Virus record (IMG/VR): IMGVR_UViG_3300017764_000097
Location: 1-24,955 of that record
Direction: 5' to 3' (one strand)
DNA: 24,955 nucleotides
DNA from: a virus
Of this stretch, positions 1-9,034 are shown one piece after another. How positions within the stretch are numbered: the stretch's first letter is position 1; each line of letters opens with the position of its first letter. The notes beneath the pieces were generated by a model. That model searched no databases and was not told where the DNA came from. It was given only the letters and a program-made list of their open reading frames with translations. Both the position numbers and the translations under genes were made by a program.

Positions 1-590
1 TCCCAAAAATGACCTTGATATTGTTCCATGAATTTTTTGAAAGCTTTAGTAAATGTTAAGTTCTCTCTATCACCGTCAATTAAAAAACAAGTTTTGGCAT
101 CTATTGATGCAAATATTTTTTTATAATAATATTCAGGTGTTTCTGATAAAGAATTATTAGCTATTAACATATCATAGCTAGTTTTAAAAATATCTGTATA
201 ACTATCTGATGTTATAAATTCAACATTATCATACTCTTTCAAAGTCTTCTTAGGTTCTTCGATACTAATAGGTGCATCAAGAATTGTATATTTAGTTATA
301 TCATAATTATCTAGGAGATGCTTTGCAAATGTACCATTACCTGGTCCTATTTCTAGACAAGTACCACCTTTAAAATTAAATTGTTCCATGTGTGTTAATT
401 CAATATAAGTTTTAGGGTTATCAAAAGTGAAGTGACCACTACCACCTTCTTGCCACATTCCTATAGTATTATTTTCTTTATTGACTACATAATCATCTTT
501 TAATATTTTATGAGGAATTAAATCAGAATCATTCCAAGAATTTGAATTAAGATCACTAAATATTAAATCACTTGTCCAGTTTTCACCCAT
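1..590 (-). CDS. SAM-dependent methyltransferase (C-terminus cut by window edge)
   Basis: The reading frame starts at the ATG at 590 and stays open to base 1, so about 196 residues are visible and the C-terminus lies outside the window. Near residue 78 it has a class I methyltransferase motif I, LEIGPGNGTFAKHL. An acidic position follows (ILDAP, the usual ribose-binding region), and then a DMLIANNSLSE stretch that looks like motif IV. The N-terminal part (GMWQEGGSGHF) resembles 'putative sugar O-methyltransferase' proteins, but that subfamily placement is tentative. It overlaps the end of the upstream oxygenase gene by 8 bases, which suggests translational coupling. The substrate is unknown; a sugar or small molecule is a reasonable inference given the oxygenase next door and the two glycosyltransferases elsewhere in the window. 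Confidence 0.75.
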   Translation of the reverse strand, partial: MGENWTSDLIFSDLNSNSWNDSDLIPHKILKDDYVVNKENNTIGMWQEGGSGHFTFDNPKTYIELTHMEQFNFKGGTCLEIGPGNGTFAKHLLDNYDITKYTILDAPISIEEPKKTLKEYDNVEFITSDSYTDIFKTSYDMLIANNSLSETPEYYYKKIFASIDAKTCFLIDGDRENLTFTKAFKKFMEQYQGHFW

Positions 591-1506
591 CTTGAATAGT
601 ATCCAATCTTTGATTATAATTTATCATTGGTACAACCTCTTTAGGTCTTTGTATCGGTTGTTCAGTTTCAAATTCATATTTATTATTTTTATCTATATAA
701 AGTATAGTTTTAAAATTTTTAGAATCATTAATAACAGTAGACTCTGTGTAATGTATAGTTTCTTCATTTGTTAGTTCTAATAAATTAGTTTCACTCTCAT
801 ACAAACATTCAACTTTAGGTGGATACCATAGGGTTTCTCTATCTTCTTCACAATCAAACTTATCTAACATTGAAAATATTTCTTCTTCTTTACCATCGTC
901 TAACTTATAGTTCCAATAATTAACCATTATAACTAATCTTTCACTATCAGGTAAAAGTTCATGCATAGCACCATGCATATATTGTCCATCAAATGTTGTT
1001 AATTTTCCTTCTTCAGGAAAAGAGAAAACTAAATTATTAAATTCTTTATCTACATTTTTAGGATTTAAATCATTATAATCTGATTTAGCATCAGCAATTA
1101 CTGTTGGTGCATCATCAATGGTTGTTAGATATAGAATGGTGGCTCTTTTTGGTTTAATTAATTCTCTTGTTAACATATAGTGGTTTTCATCACGATCAAT
1201 ATGAAGACAAATATATTCATCACTTTGAATCTCTTCTCTAAATTCATCAGGTTTAGAATGATGCACCCACCATTCAAAACCAGCTAAGTCTTCTATCTCA
1301 CCTTCATTTTTAGAAATCATTTGATAAGCATTTAATATATATTTTTCAATCATGTTTTTAGGTTTAGCATCTTTATCTAACCAGAACAACATTTGATCAT
1401 CGAAAGGAATTTCTTCTTCTGTATGTTGAATAACTTTTAATACATCTTCTTTTAAAATATTTATGTCATCTTTTGAAAAACCATTTCTGTAAGAAATTAC
1501 ATCCAT
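583..1506 (-). CDS. 2OG-Fe(II) oxygenase-like protein
   Basis: This 307-residue protein carries the pattern of an iron/2-oxoglutarate dioxygenase. It has an HxD pair (H102-I-D104 in ICLHIDRDE), a beta strand (ATILYLTTID), a distal histidine in GQYMHGAMHE (H178 or H182) and a downstream arginine (SERLVIMVNYW, R190) that would bind the 2OG carboxylate. Spacing of HxD to distal H (about 75 residues) and H to R (about 10) suits the prolyl-hydroxylase-like branch. Such genes are frequent in marine T4-like phages. The last roughly 100 residues have no recognisable motif. The start ATG lies just after the stop of the upstream small gene and the 3' end overlaps the methyltransferase gene, so the three appear co-transcribed. 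The substrate (protein, nucleobase or sugar) cannot be told from sequence. Confidence 0.7.
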   Translation of the reverse strand: MDVISYRNGFSKDDINILKEDVLKVIQHTEEEIPFDDQMLFWLDKDAKPKNMIEKYILNAYQMISKNEGEIEDLAGFEWWVHHSKPDEFREEIQSDEYICLHIDRDENHYMLTRELIKPKRATILYLTTIDDAPTVIADAKSDYNDLNPKNVDKEFNNLVFSFPEEGKLTTFDGQYMHGAMHELLPDSERLVIMVNYWNYKLDDGKEEEIFSMLDKFDCEEDRETLWYPPKVECLYESETNLLELTNEETIHYTESTVINDSKNFKTILYIDKNNKYEFETEQPIQRPKEVVPMINYNQRLDTIQDG

Positions 1507-1510
1507 ATTA

Positions 1511-1786
1511 TTACTCAGTATCTTTATCGTTATCTTTTTTTCTTAACTCAGAATCTATTTCCATTGCTTCTTCTAAAACATCTAAACTACAATTACAATA
1601 GGCATATTCAGCAATACCATTTTTAATATCTATATTATCGAATCCAAGTGTTGTCAAAACACCAACAAATTTATCAATAATATCTACTAAAGTTATTTTA
1701 TTTGTGGTTGCTGTTGCGTGTTCTCTACTTTGATTACCTTTTGGATCATGAGTAACATAATTAATTGAAATATCTAATTCTTTCAT
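1511..1786 (-). CDS. hypothetical protein, 91 aa
   Basis: I do not recognise this 91-residue protein. It has an N-terminal beta-strand-like segment (LDISINYVTHD), a predicted helix around residues 34-45 (VDIIDKFVGVLTTL), two cysteines in a YCNCS motif near residues 63-67, and a highly charged C-terminus (ELRKKDNDKDTE). No signal peptide or membrane segment is visible. It sits 4 bases before the oxygenase start and is preceded, with only 5 bases between, by a TATAAT box. If that box is a promoter, the message would begin at or next to the AUG. Confidence 0.6.
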   Translation of the reverse strand: MKELDISINYVTHDPKGNQSREHATATTNKITLVDIIDKFVGVLTTLGFDNIDIKNGIAEYAYCNCSLDVLEEAMEIDSELRKKDNDKDTE

Positions 1787-1800: not shown

Positions 1801-2970
1801 TTAGAATGACAATTTGTAACCTAGATATACTTTGTTTCTGAGAACTTCTGGTGTTGCAAACGAATTAACTTTCGTTAACATATAACTAAACTCAATGGCA
1901 TTTAATTCATTAATATTATATCCTACATTAGTCATGAAAACTGTAATTAAATCTTCTCTTTCAGTTTCTTCCCACTCATATCTAAGATAATCTTCTGTAT
2001 ACACACTTTCCATTATCATCACGTTTTGACTAACATTAATTTTTGGTGTTATTTTATATCTAACACCTAAAGCATATTTGTAACTTTCTCTCATATTAAA
2101 CTGAGGTAGAGAGGATTCAAATGTATCATAAGATATACTTGCGTTTACACTAGCATCTCTTGATAGTTGTGCCATGAGACTTAATAAGAAAGTAGGTGTT
2201 TGTATACTCTCTTCTTCACCATATTCATCTTCTAATATTGTATTTTTAAAACCTACATCTAAATTTATCATAGCTATTGGTATAGGTATATAAGTTAAAG
2301 TACTAAAAACTGATACACTATCAAGTCCTCCTCTATCTTCTTGATATTCAAGACTGGATGCTTTTGTACCAACAGATAAGAATAATTTACCTTCTTTTAC
2401 TTCATGAGCAAAAATACCAAGTGCTTTAAATTGTTCAAAATCACTATTAGTAAAAGTATTTGTTGTTAGTTGTAAATTATCAGACCAACTTTTTAGAGTA
2501 TGACCTACATCTATTGATACTGCATTTTTTCTACTAAATGAATAAGTTAAACCTAAATTAGCATTGTTATTATAATAATACATATCTTGAATAATGTTTA
2601 CTAAACTTGGTTCTTTATCTGATATGTTAAATTTGTTTGAGAAATTAATTTCTAGTCTAGGTGATATTTTATGAGAGTACATTCCCACCATATTTTGAAA
2701 GTATAAAACTTCATCATCAATAGTTCTATATCTTATTTCAGGTGACCAAAATACAGCCACATTTTTTTGAGGTGATCTAAAAGGCACACCTTGTATTACA
2801 AATACTTGACTTATAAAATCGGATGCTATCTCTTCACCAACACTTTGTGAGAATATATTATCATCATGACCATATCTTGTACTTGTTGATATTTTTAATC
2901 TCTGATCTAAAAGACCTTGTGCTGAAAAGCATAGTGCTAGTAATATTAATATTATTATTTTGTATTTCAT
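1801..2970 (-). CDS. outer-membrane beta-barrel protein with signal peptide
   Basis: This 389-residue protein begins with a clear Sec signal peptide: MKYK, a hydrophobic IIILILLALCF core, then a likely cleavage after SAQG. The mature part is a run of alternating, aromatic-rich amphipathic strands. A TRYGHDDNIF segment close to the N-terminus resembles the opening of BBP2/EpsL-type 'putative beta-barrel porin' proteins. The chain ends in YLGYKLSF, with a terminal phenylalanine, which matches the C-terminal beta-signal read by the BAM complex. These features point to insertion in the host outer membrane, not to a virion component. The gene lies between dCMP deaminase (26 bases upstream) and the 91-aa unknown, so it is in the phage operon and not in a bacterial flank. 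Its Shine-Dalgarno is inside a perfect 8-bp hairpin. The role is unknown; altering uptake or blocking further phage adsorption are inferences. Confidence 0.75.
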   Translation of the reverse strand: MKYKIIILILLALCFSAQGLLDQRLKISTSTRYGHDDNIFSQSVGEEIASDFISQVFVIQGVPFRSPQKNVAVFWSPEIRYRTIDDEVLYFQNMVGMYSHKISPRLEINFSNKFNISDKEPSLVNIIQDMYYYNNNANLGLTYSFSRKNAVSIDVGHTLKSWSDNLQLTTNTFTNSDFEQFKALGIFAHEVKEGKLFLSVGTKASSLEYQEDRGGLDSVSVFSTLTYIPIPIAMINLDVGFKNTILEDEYGEEESIQTPTFLLSLMAQLSRDASVNASISYDTFESSLPQFNMRESYKYALGVRYKITPKINVSQNVMIMESVYTEDYLRYEWEETEREDLITVFMTNVGYNINELNAIEFSYMLTKVNSFATPEVLRNKVYLGYKLSF

Positions 2971-2971
2971 T

Positions 2972-2991
2972 ATACACCTCTTCAGGTGTAT
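2972..2991 (-). promoter_or_regulatory. hairpin sequestering the RBS of the beta-barrel gene
   Basis: In the RNA, AUACACCU and AGGUGUAU form a perfect 8-bp stem closed by a GAAG loop. The second arm contains the AGGUG Shine-Dalgarno and ends one base before the AUG at 2970. No U-run follows, so this is not a standard terminator. It would be expected to lower translation until melted or bound. Confidence 0.6.
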
Positions 2992-2995
2992 TTAC

Positions 2996-3445
2996 TCATA
3001 CATATGTGATAGTTACATCAGCTTCTGTTAATAATTGTTCAGCTAATGTACAGGAATCTTTCCACCTAGATTCAGAATTATCATAAGTTTTTTTCATGAC
3101 AATGTGTTTGATTCCAACTTGTATGATACCTTTTGCACATTCATTACAAACTGGTAAACCATATACATACATTGTTGAACCTTCAAGAGATACGCCTGTT
3201 CGAGACGCATTGTAGATTGCATTCATTTCAGCATGAACAACTTTGGTATATTTTATTTCACGGTCTGTGTAGTCGCTTTCACGGTCTTCTATACCTCTAG
3301 GGAAGCCATTGTATCCTTGAGTAAGAACTTGACCGGCAGAACCAATTACAACTGCACCTATTTGTTTAGAAGGGTCTTTCGACCATTGAGAAATATATTT
3401 TGCTAAGTCTAAGTATCGCTGATGCCAATGTGACTTTATTCGCAT
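2996..3445 (-). CDS. deoxycytidylate (dCMP) deaminase
   Basis: This 149-residue protein converts dCMP to dUMP, feeding dTMP synthesis during phage replication. It has the zinc-dependent deaminase signature: HAE (H71, catalytic E73) in VVHAEMNAIYNA, and PVCNECAKGI, with C100 and C103 as the other zinc ligands. The N-terminal SKDPSKQIGAVV and YNGFPRGIED segments are typical of the dCMP deaminase/ComEB family, and the length fits. T4 carries the same activity (gene cd). The T4 enzyme has an additional zinc site, which I did not trace here. The start overlaps the upstream gene by 10 bases, so the two are probably translationally coupled. Confidence 0.92.
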   Translation of the reverse strand: MRIKSHWHQRYLDLAKYISQWSKDPSKQIGAVVIGSAGQVLTQGYNGFPRGIEDRESDYTDREIKYTKVVHAEMNAIYNASRTGVSLEGSTMYVYGLPVCNECAKGIIQVGIKHIVMKKTYDNSESRWKDSCTLAEQLLTEADVTITYV

Positions 3446-6502: not shown

Positions 6503-6531
6503 AATATAGGATATTTCCTCTTTAATGTCAA
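6503..6531 (-). promoter_or_regulatory. sigma70-type promoter for the 5584-6450 gene
   Basis: Minus strand: TTGACA (6526-6531), a 17-base spacer, TATATT (6503-6508), ending about 52 bases before the ATG at 6450. The -35 hexamer overlaps the stop codon of the ATPase gene. Consensus -35 and exact spacing make this a strong host-sigma promoter candidate. Confidence 0.82.
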
Positions 6532-7586
6532 TCACTTATTTCAGCTAACTTTGATAATTTTTTGTAGCTTGGACAAACACATGACTCTGGGTTTTTCTCA
6601 GACATCATCGCTAAGATTGTTGCCTTATATTCGGCAGGTAATCTCATCGCATACTGATAAACTTTATCACAAAGGTCAGTATCGTCTTTTGCATACTCAA
6701 TCAAACCAGTAGTCACGGCATAAAGAACAGAAGGTTCATAATCAATTCTGGCATTTTCAACATCTGCCAGTATTTGATCAGGAGTTTCAGCTTCTTTATA
6801 AAGATCAATAAACGCCTTATACTGAATCGAGGCAGGAACACCAATCATGCCTGCCATCATTGGAAGCATAATATCTTTCGTATCAAAATTGAAACCTTTA
6901 TTGATTGAAGTAACAACTTTATCAACGAAGTCAAGTGAACGTCTTGTGGCGAAACTTTGATCTTCAAAGTCTTCGTCAGCTTCAAGAACTTCATGACCCG
7001 CAAACTTATCGAATGCTCGTCTTTCAGGTGAGATACCATTCTCACTTGCCCACTTATCATAGGAAGCATTATCACCGGAAATGTATAACATACACAATCT
7101 GTTGATGGCAGCCTTGGATAAAGGAGTCGTATACATATCACTTGAACCATTCATCGCACCGACAAAGACAACTTTATCAGAAATCTTTTCATTAGCAATT
7201 TTACGACCAAGTAAAATGTTTAGAATCACATTCTGTAACATTTGGTCACAACGATCAAGTTCATCAAAGAATATCACCGTTAAAGGATCATCATCTTTTG
7301 CATCTTTCTCAAGAGGAATCCATTCAGCACAAACTTCATGAACACGACCTTCAATCTCTTTTGGAAGAGAGAAGTTCGAAATATCCATCTGAGACAGAAT
7401 ACGAGTTTCAAGAACAGCATTAATACCATTCTTATTCAACGCACTCACGAAATCTTCAATCGCAGTAGTTTTACCACAACCAACAGGACCAACAAGAACT
7501 GGTGGTATTTTAGATTTCATCAAAACAGCAATCGCTCTTTTAGCTTGCTGAGGCGTGATTTTCAGAACTTTACTTTCACTACTCAT
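6528..7586 (-). CDS. MoxR-family AAA+ ATPase ('CobS-like')
   Basis: This 352-residue ATPase has all main AAA+ elements: Walker A GPVGCGKTT (residues 33-41), Walker B VIFFDE (104-109), sensor 1 in VVFVGAMNGSSDMY (N146) and a conserved arginine in AAINRLCMLYI (R163). The arrangement, with FDELDRCDQMLQNVILNIL after Walker B, is that of MoxR/RavA/CobS ATPases. These act with a VWA-domain partner to remodel or load metals into target proteins. Phage copies are often labelled cobS, but no other cobalamin genes are here. Its direct partners are evidently the upstream VWA/metallopeptidase gene and the downstream helical protein. It has its own sigma70-type promoter and richer G+C than most of the window. 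The target is unknown. Confidence 0.85.
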   Translation of the reverse strand: MSSESKVLKITPQQAKRAIAVLMKSKIPPVLVGPVGCGKTTAIEDFVSALNKNGINAVLETRILSQMDISNFSLPKEIEGRVHEVCAEWIPLEKDAKDDDPLTVIFFDELDRCDQMLQNVILNILLGRKIANEKISDKVVFVGAMNGSSDMYTTPLSKAAINRLCMLYISGDNASYDKWASENGISPERRAFDKFAGHEVLEADEDFEDQSFATRRSLDFVDKVVTSINKGFNFDTKDIMLPMMAGMIGVPASIQYKAFIDLYKEAETPDQILADVENARIDYEPSVLYAVTTGLIEYAKDDTDLCDKVYQYAMRLPAEYKATILAMMSEKNPESCVCPSYKKLSKLAEISD

Positions 7587-7617
7587 AATTTTTTATAACC
7601 TCACTTTCAATACCTGG

Positions 7618-7646
7618 AATATATCCTATCTTACTCGAATTGTCAA
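7618..7646 (-). promoter_or_regulatory. sigma70-type promoter for the MoxR ATPase gene
   Basis: Minus strand: TTGACA (7641-7646), 17-base spacer, TATATT (7618-7623), 31 bases before the ATG at 7586. The downstream leader contains GTGAGG as a possible ribosome site. Its geometry matches the promoters at 6503 and 9006. Confidence 0.82.
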
Positions 7647-7654
7647 CACTTATT

Positions 7655-8983
7655 TTACTTAACATGAATTGTTCTTCCTACTTCACCTTCAAGATTTGAA
7701 GTACATAACCAAATCACATCTATTCCTTTTAAATCTTTTTTGAATGACTTGGGACCTGGGTCAGCTTGATGCCAATCCCACTCAAATTCAAGGTCAGTCA
7801 TTACAATCATTAACTTTGGTTTCTTTCGAAGAGTTTGAAGTTTGTCAGCAACACATTGGAACTTAGTACCACCTCTACCAACCATTTCAATATCTTCAAG
7901 ATTTGTATTTTTGGTAATTGTTCTTTCATCTCTAATTTGAGTATCAAACTGCCATAAATCATAACTATCTAATGATAGTAAAGCATTTTGTCCTTCTGTT
8001 AATGTTGCATCAAAATCATCCTGTCTCATAGAACACGATGTATCCATAACAAACAGAATATCACCTGGTGTTTTTACTTGTCGAGTAGGCATTATAAAAT
8101 TACTTCGTATTCTTCTTGAAGGAACTAACCAATTATAACCTGCTTTTTTCTGAGACGATAAATAATTTCGAAGAAGAATCTTCCAATTAACTTCACCTTT
8201 TCCTGTTAGTTCATTTATCTTTTCTTTTATTGAACTTGGAATATGATCACCAGCTTCTTGAGAGGCCGCAATCGCTTGCATTATCATTGAATTAACTTCT
8301 TGTTCAGCTTCTTCTAAATCTTCATCTTCACAAGCTTCAAACTCACCGAAAGTTTGTGTATTACCTGAATCTTCTTCATAGTCATCAGAACTTTCTTCTT
8401 CAGAATCATCACTGTTTTCACCTGAAGAACTACCTTCTGAATCATCAGAAGAATCACCGTTTGAACTTGATGAATTTCCTGAATCGTCAGATGAATCTTC
8501 TTCTTCTGTTTCATTTTCTTGAGACTCATCTGACTGATTCTCTTTTTCTTCTTCTTTTTTCTTTTGAATTAAATCGTAATAATATTCAGCACTCTTACCA
8601 AAAGGATAGTCAGAATAATCACCTCTACCAGGAAGAAGAGCATCTTCTGGGAAACCATCTAAATCGAAAATCTCACAATTAAGTGCCAAGTCGGCAGCCA
8701 CATTAAAATCATTGTGATTATAGTTTGAAATTTTTGAACTTCTTAAATGGTGTTTAAATACAAGGTGTAAAATCTCATGCATTAAAATAACTTTAGTAGT
8801 TGAGAATTTTAGAGAACTTGCAAAATCTGGATTATAAAGTAATTCTTTATGATTGATAGCGAATGTTTTAATCTTTCTAGTTTCTATTAATTTAAGTCTT
8901 AATAAAATACTGGCATAGAATGGCTCTGTTTTAATTAGTGACATTCTTGCTTCTTTTACAATATCTTTAATGTCGAAACTCAT
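7655..8983 (-). CDS. metallopeptidase-like/VWA domain protein (MoxR partner)
   Basis: I start this 442-residue protein at the ATG at 8983. An ATG eight codons upstream (9007) overlaps the promoter -10 box and so would not be transcribed from it. Residues 1-135 resemble the putative metallopeptidase half of DUF2201-type proteins, with HEILH (H69, E70, H73), then KHHLRS and NVAADLALN, which could supply a third ligand. Residues 145-223 are a very acidic Ser/Asp/Glu linker. The C-terminal part is a VWA-like domain with a MIDAS: DTSCS (D314, S316, S318), GRGGT (T373) and MTDLEFEW (D397). Such proteins pair with MoxR ATPases, as ViaA does with RavA and CobT with CobS. Whether the HExxH site is catalytic is unknown. 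Confidence 0.85.
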   Translation of the reverse strand: MSFDIKDIVKEARMSLIKTEPFYASILLRLKLIETRKIKTFAINHKELLYNPDFASSLKFSTTKVILMHEILHLVFKHHLRSSKISNYNHNDFNVAADLALNCEIFDLDGFPEDALLPGRGDYSDYPFGKSAEYYYDLIQKKKEEEKENQSDESQENETEEEDSSDDSGNSSSSNGDSSDDSEGSSSGENSDDSEEESSDDYEEDSGNTQTFGEFEACEDEDLEEAEQEVNSMIMQAIAASQEAGDHIPSSIKEKINELTGKGEVNWKILLRNYLSSQKKAGYNWLVPSRRIRSNFIMPTRQVKTPGDILFVMDTSCSMRQDDFDATLTEGQNALLSLDSYDLWQFDTQIRDERTITKNTNLEDIEMVGRGGTKFQCVADKLQTLRKKPKLMIVMTDLEFEWDWHQADPGPKSFKKDLKGIDVIWLCTSNLEGEVGRTIHVK

Positions 8984-9005
8984 ACTTTTCTCACTTTCTA
9001 TGGAC

Positions 9006-9034
9006 ATCTTATCCTAGATATGGTGGAAAGTCAA
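9006..9034 (-). promoter_or_regulatory. sigma70-type promoter for the VWA gene
   Basis: Minus strand: TTGACT (9029-9034), 17-base spacer, TAAGAT (9006-9011). Transcription would begin near 9000, upstream of the ATG at 8983. Third promoter of this type in the module, each in front of one gene. Confidence 0.75.

Follow-up and report, generated by a model that had tools for sequence, protein, structure and literature searches.

The barrel locus and its recurrence in phages

The window, by which we mean the whole stretch of DNA analysed, is the IMG/VR virus record IMGVR_UViG_3300017764_000097 and comprises 24,955 nucleotides. Its minus strand carries a run of tightly packed genes for a dCMP deaminase, a predicted outer-membrane barrel, a 91-aa protein and a 307-aa protein. 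The features of this locus are as follows.

2996..3445, minus strand: upstream neighbour, dCMP deaminase (PF00383, phrog_174); order the same in a relative phage
2977..2983, minus strand: putative ribosome-binding site GAAGAGG, 6 nt before the barrel ATG (from sequence)
1801..2970, minus strand: barrel coding sequence, 389 aa, ATG start (open reading frame, homologues, structure model)
2914..2970, minus strand: predicted Sec-type signal peptide, residues 1-19 (MKYKIIILILLALCFSAQG) (sequence and hydropathy; helix 2-19 in the model)
2857..2865, minus strand: DDN motif, residues 36-38, at the end of predicted strand 1 (alignment)
2317..2337, minus strand: DRGGLDS motif, residues 212-218; the barrels of bacterial exopolysaccharide (EPS) operons have DRGGYDS (alignment)
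1804..1827, minus strand: C-terminal strand and beta-signal YLGYKLSF, residues 382-389 (sequence; last model strand 376-388)
1511..1786, minus strand: downstream neighbour, 91 aa; order the same in the relative phage
583..1506, minus strand: second downstream neighbour, 307 aa, phrog_23934-like; 39% in the relative phage, same order

The signal peptide was called from a sequence heuristic together with hydropathy. A lipoprotein reading of it was rejected, as both the window protein and its closest phage relative lack a lipobox and have a Leu before Cys14. T4 late-promoter octamers are no more frequent in the window than expected by chance and none precedes the barrel gene. A gp32-like SSB and a dNMP kinase are encoded in the window itself. 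The 307-aa protein gave weak matches to Asp/Arg-hydroxylase-like proteins and to phrog_23934, and its gene is a fast-evolving one near the barrel. At 6528-9007 (minus strand) an AAA ATPase and a DUF2201/VWA metallopeptidase-like protein lie in tandem and are 87-95% identical in the relative; the metallopeptidase-like protein has counterparts in many other phages.

When the single window protein was used as the query, no matches were obtained in viral contigs, annotated phages or PDB sequences, and the first small alignment found nothing in genome contigs; relatives surfaced via the neighbouring genes and then via profiles. The closest comes from a phage represented by two near-identical IMG/VR contigs (55.9 and 88.6 kb) from two samples. 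Its barrel gene is 62% identical over 390 columns and also lies between a dCMP deaminase and a 91-aa gene, so that recurrence at the same locus, which the initial annotation had proposed as a check, was indeed found. The best conserved neighbours of the barrel are 77-95% identical between the two phages, with dN of 0.03-0.08 and dS of about 0.7, and the barrel itself has dN 0.29 and dS 1.08. The barrel gene thus diverges faster than its conserved neighbours, yet it is under purifying selection (dN/dS about 0.26); retention in place at 62% identity with such a ratio argues for a real gene under selection. The syntenic contigs of the relative encode a T4-type terminase large subunit, UvsX, a replicative helicase of the DnaB type, an SbcC/SbcD-type nuclease and contractile-tail genes (baseplate wedge subunit and tail-sheath stabilizer). 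T4-like myovirus, the background already assumed when the gene was first annotated, is therefore a fair description. That the window is a stray bacterial fragment was considered and rejected, because its gene order is common to independent contigs with T4-like structural genes.

A third, distant phage (IMGVR_UViG_3300030117_005233, 56.5 kb) has a full-length barrel homologue (31%, E 7e-63) in a different neighbourhood, among genes related to those of the window phage and its relative. The barrel was not found in 43 other contigs reached via the dCMP deaminase or in 50,697 annotated phage records; diverged copies can escape pattern-based scans.

Evidence for a beta-barrel

The initial annotation had described a Sec signal peptide, an amphipathic body rich in strands and a beta-signal YKLSF at the C-terminus. 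All three are borne out by the sequence, which ends in VYLGYKLSF. Alternation of inside and outside residues in the window barrel exceeded that of shuffled sequences (z 2.55 for the single sequence), and for family alignments z rose to 5.8-6.6; the same test on nine other window proteins gave z of -0.95 to 0.90. An AlphaFold2 model was built from the three phage sequences only, with the bacterial homologues left out; an earlier model from effectively two sequences (pLDDT 28) was set aside. The model has 17 strands, with short turns alternating with longer loops, at pLDDT 55.3 and pTM 0.50. At residues 93-180 the pLDDT is below 50, and the low-confidence stretch 118-168 has space for one or more missing strands. 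A total of 18 strands is more likely by topology of the model than the 16 or so first suggested.

A Foldseek search with this model returned 374 PDB chains at E <= 0.001, and the best 50 of these 374 were all outer-membrane barrels, which upholds the original call of an outer-membrane barrel. Among the matches listed, TM-scores to the PDB barrels were low (0.27-0.42). OpdQ came first by E-value, and OmpT, OpdO and FadL-type barrels also preceded AlgE, the 18-stranded exopolysaccharide channel of alginate export, which had the highest query TM-score (0.42) of the matches listed. AlgE belongs to a synthase-dependent pathway and has only 7-8% identity to the phage barrel in the structural alignment. 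Given the low TM-scores and the position of AlgE behind the OpdQ, OmpT and FadL-type barrels by E-value, fold comparison alone cannot single out polysaccharide export.

The predicted outer loops have diverged no further than the strands (69% vs 59% and 37% vs 30%), as would be expected of a working channel more than of a decoy. Two of these loops, LEYQEDRGG (residues 208-215) and SSLPQFN (286-292), are conserved as well as the strands or better. As LEYQEDRGG is held in common with the bacterial barrels (DRGGYDS), these loops may line the channel.

Bacterial relatives and probable host

In a profile-profile comparison, the phage pair matched 20 bacterial BBP2-like proteins with a probability of 99.3% (E 1e-20) over 349 columns, which supports the kinship to BBP2/EpsL proposed at the outset. 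Phage and bacterial proteins have two patterns in common, the family hallmark RxGYDDNI towards the N-terminus and RNxxxxG towards the C-terminus, and the DDN is invariant in an alignment of 22 phage and bacterial sequences. The same N-terminal DDN and C-terminal RNxxxxG recur in EpsL (TIGR03014), TIGR03016 and BBP2_2 (PF10082), and Verrucomicrobiota proteins of the PF10082 type align end to end with the phage barrel by profile. The phage proteins differ from these families in scoring below all curated cut-offs: the window protein reached 10.1 bits against Pfam PF10082 BBP2_2 (gathering cut-off 23.7 bits) and 18.2 bits, over residues 9-47, against the NCBIfam equivalog model TIGR03014 EpsL (cut-off 275 bits). 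It is accordingly related to PF10082 by profile-profile comparison, not a member by threshold.

With the phage trio as a profile, 32 of the 43 genomes of the best-matching order (Verrucomicrobiota/Kiritimatiellota) gave full-length matches (best 2.8e-42). In the phylum of a Kiritimatiellaeota MAG, 36 of 358 genomes matched. Matches were weak in the class of an Opitutaceae MAG (16 of 355 genomes, best 1.8e-11), and there were none among 369 Pseudomonadota. A profile that included bacterial members matched 255 of the 374 genomes sampled from one class in the same phylum. In all nine bacterial neighbourhoods read, the barrel adjoins a Wzz/tyrosine-kinase gene of about 700 aa, and both such neighbours that were scanned have Wzz, GNVR and tyrosine-autokinase domains. 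Beyond this gene, eight of the nine neighbourhoods have a lipoprotein of about 200 aa, and the ninth contig ends first; the one lipoprotein scanned has Poly_export and SLBB domains. By sequence, this is the gene set of a composite OPX/beta-barrel translocon of the EpsX/EpsY type. The nine EPS-operon barrels as a profile, without any phage sequence, detected the window protein (195 bits, E 4e-59). A single bacterial barrel, from the AT-rich genome G646, detected it at 3e-32; both searches were made in a small database. In a tree, the phage trio forms one clade (support 100) inside the EPS-operon barrels (99). Kinship to barrels of OPX/PCP operons is thus seen both in the profile search and in the tree, and we are highly confident that the window protein is an outer-membrane barrel of the EpsX/WzpX/EpsL family.

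Within the tree, the phage clade stands beside G646 (support 93), and the third phage is one long branch. A single capture by an ancestor of these phages is the likeliest history, and the donor was most likely a bacterium of the order of G646 and G529 (Verrucomicrobiota/Kiritimatiellota), judging from the sequences. The 62% relative also encodes a full GroEL of 543 aa (L005:3803-5434, plus strand), flanked on one side by a methyltransferase gene and on the other by the dCMP deaminase region. This GroEL reads as 567 aa in an otherwise identical contig (G001), and groEL is missing from the corresponding place in the window. The best match of the relative's GroEL is that of G529 (72%), from the same order as the barrel relatives; the branch that joins the two in a tree is weakly supported (80/49) and lies within a Verrucomicrobiota/Kiritimatiellota group supported at 94/93. 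From these two genes, the barrel and the relative's GroEL, a host in the order of G646 and G529 is probable. The first GroEL matches had suggested Opitutia as the nearest host group; this was rejected, since the barrel matches there are weaker (1.8e-11 vs 2.8e-42). The two genes link these viruses with a group of bacteria that has few cultured members.

Proposed role in polysaccharide export and the alternatives

In Myxococcus xanthus, the 18-stranded barrel EpsX and the short OPX protein EpsY bind and stabilise each other, and AlgE is the nearest structure (PMC9601211). EpsX and WzpX each work with a short OPX protein in a composite OPX/beta-barrel translocon, described in 2022, in which the OPX protein is without a membrane-spanning part of its own (PMC9601211, PMC9603273). 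The phage barrel can be likened to these proteins by description and operon layout: the type of signal peptide, a predicted total of 18 strands and the presence of AlgE among the structural neighbours agree, and the bacterial relatives of the phage barrel likewise adjoin genes for a PCP/tyrosine kinase and for an OPX lipoprotein of the short type. The phages differ in carrying the barrel alone; no OPX, PCP or Wzz/kinase gene was found in the phage contigs (25, 89, 56 and 56 kb). We therefore file the window protein as a barrel homologue, not as a complete system, and any OPX partner must come from the host.

Sec export, folding by BAM and outer-membrane insertion are established for proteins of this kind. 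We infer that the phage barrel would be exported by the host Sec system and inserted by the host BAM machinery via its C-terminal signal. It would then serve as the membrane-spanning half of a composite translocon beneath which a short periplasmic OPX lipoprotein docks, pairing with the host's short OPX protein and displacing the host's own barrel. Such a pairing is suggested by the kinship to translocon barrels and by the finding that the phage contigs have neither OPX nor PCP genes of their own. Export of surface polysaccharide could thereby be changed, throttled or redirected, and the cell surface altered in the phage's favour. That the phage carries its own version of its probable hosts' export channel suggests tampering with the host coat during multiplication. 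We put the probability that the barrel acts on polysaccharide export during infection at roughly 0.55. The roles named in the initial annotation, a block of superinfection, nutrient uptake and release, are generic ones, whereas the genes around the nearest bacterial homologues suggest export of surface polysaccharide. The 62% relative also encodes a GT8 glycosyltransferase, a sulfotransferase, NAD-dependent epimerases and a UDP-glucose-dehydrogenase-like domain. These are compatible with work on surface glycans, but genes of these kinds are frequent in large marine phages.

Other readings were weighed against this one. The barrel could have no role with polysaccharide and instead replace or crowd out a host barrel that serves as a phage receptor, thereby excluding superinfection. 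Outer-membrane barrels are common receptors of T4-like phages, and overexpression of ompF is reported to inhibit T4 infection (PMC8594841). A protein that takes the place of a receptor could share ancestry with a host outer-membrane protein, and the phage barrel does. That a host barrel of this type is a receptor is, however, an assumption, and outer loops at least as conserved as the strands are unlike those of a receptor mimic escaping recognition. Exclusion is also more useful to a prophage than to a virulent T4-like phage. We consider this explanation unlikely; its purest form, a decoy receptor, is not favoured by the loop conservation and is retained only as a rival. An auxiliary metabolic gene for a general diffusion or substrate porin, raising nutrient uptake in infection, would agree with the lead of OpdQ, OmpT, OpdO and FadL-type barrels by E-value among the fold matches listed and with the existence of phage-encoded OmpC-like and phosphate-selective porins. 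Yet the sequence kinship is to EPS-operon barrels rather than uptake porins, and solved porins give no convincing sequence match, so that we judge a porin quite improbable.

EpsL-type barrels are known to be linked in genomes with PEP-CTERM systems, and the third phage fits this pattern: directly before its barrel lie two small ORFs (L241:2-307 and L241:304-864, plus strand) with PEP-CTERM ends (VPEPATIGLFLGGIGTLLLIRKRIHG and IPEPYAAGLIVVGGLSLLIGRRLFR), the first of which scores above the TIGR02595 and PF07589 cut-offs. By these ends, the two ORFs probably encode exosortase substrates. The barrel might then partner such phage-encoded exosortase targets, barrel and cargo together decorating the host surface, and the bacterial relatives do match PEP-CTERM-associated EpsL and TIGR03016 models, below cut-off. 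Against this, no PEP-CTERM ORF is present in the window or the 62% relative, the contigs of both being incomplete, and we give the idea of such a partnership little credence. Least probable, and only barely credible to us, is that the protein forms part of the virion or helps lysis: with its signal peptide it could work in the envelope when the cell lyses, but the gene sits among nucleotide-metabolism and unknown genes instead of tail or lysis genes, and members of the family are cellular outer-membrane proteins. Returning to an action on polysaccharide export, a broader form, in which virulent T4-like phages of uncultured Verrucomicrobiota/Kiritimatiellota swap the host's translocon barrel for their own and one lineage adds exosortase-anchored (PEP-CTERM) surface proteins, is a tentative proposal that we hold to be possible but on balance doubtful. 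If true, the phage would directly control what the infected cell displays on its surface.

Where phages act on the surface polysaccharide of their hosts, they usually do so through virion depolymerases or sugar-modifying enzymes. An exit channel carried by a phage would intervene in the same process by another route and would name a concrete partner, the short OPX protein; as a strongly diverged natural variant, it could also serve to ask how much change a translocon barrel tolerates before it stops working. Both phage-borne outer-membrane barrels, including those of T4-like phages, and this type of translocon barrel in bacteria are already known. The view that a barrel is unusual in a T4-like phage is accordingly weakened: cyanophages have the outer-membrane protein family PF24653, the BFVD library holds several phage porins, one of them named outer membrane protein in Aeromonas phage phiAS5, and OmpC-like porins are known from uncultured Caudovirales. 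These are likewise barrels in tailed phages, some T4-like, but they belong to other barrel families, many are small, and none was found to be related to an EPS translocon. We found no report of a phage-encoded polysaccharide-translocon barrel in the open-access literature, which is not proof of absence.

A separate observation concerns a cell-wall-hydrolase-like protein with its own signal peptide, recognised by eye, at G002:56244-56723 (minus strand) and G438:49837-50373 (plus strand). It is 69% identical between these two otherwise very different phages and is a candidate secreted endolysin.
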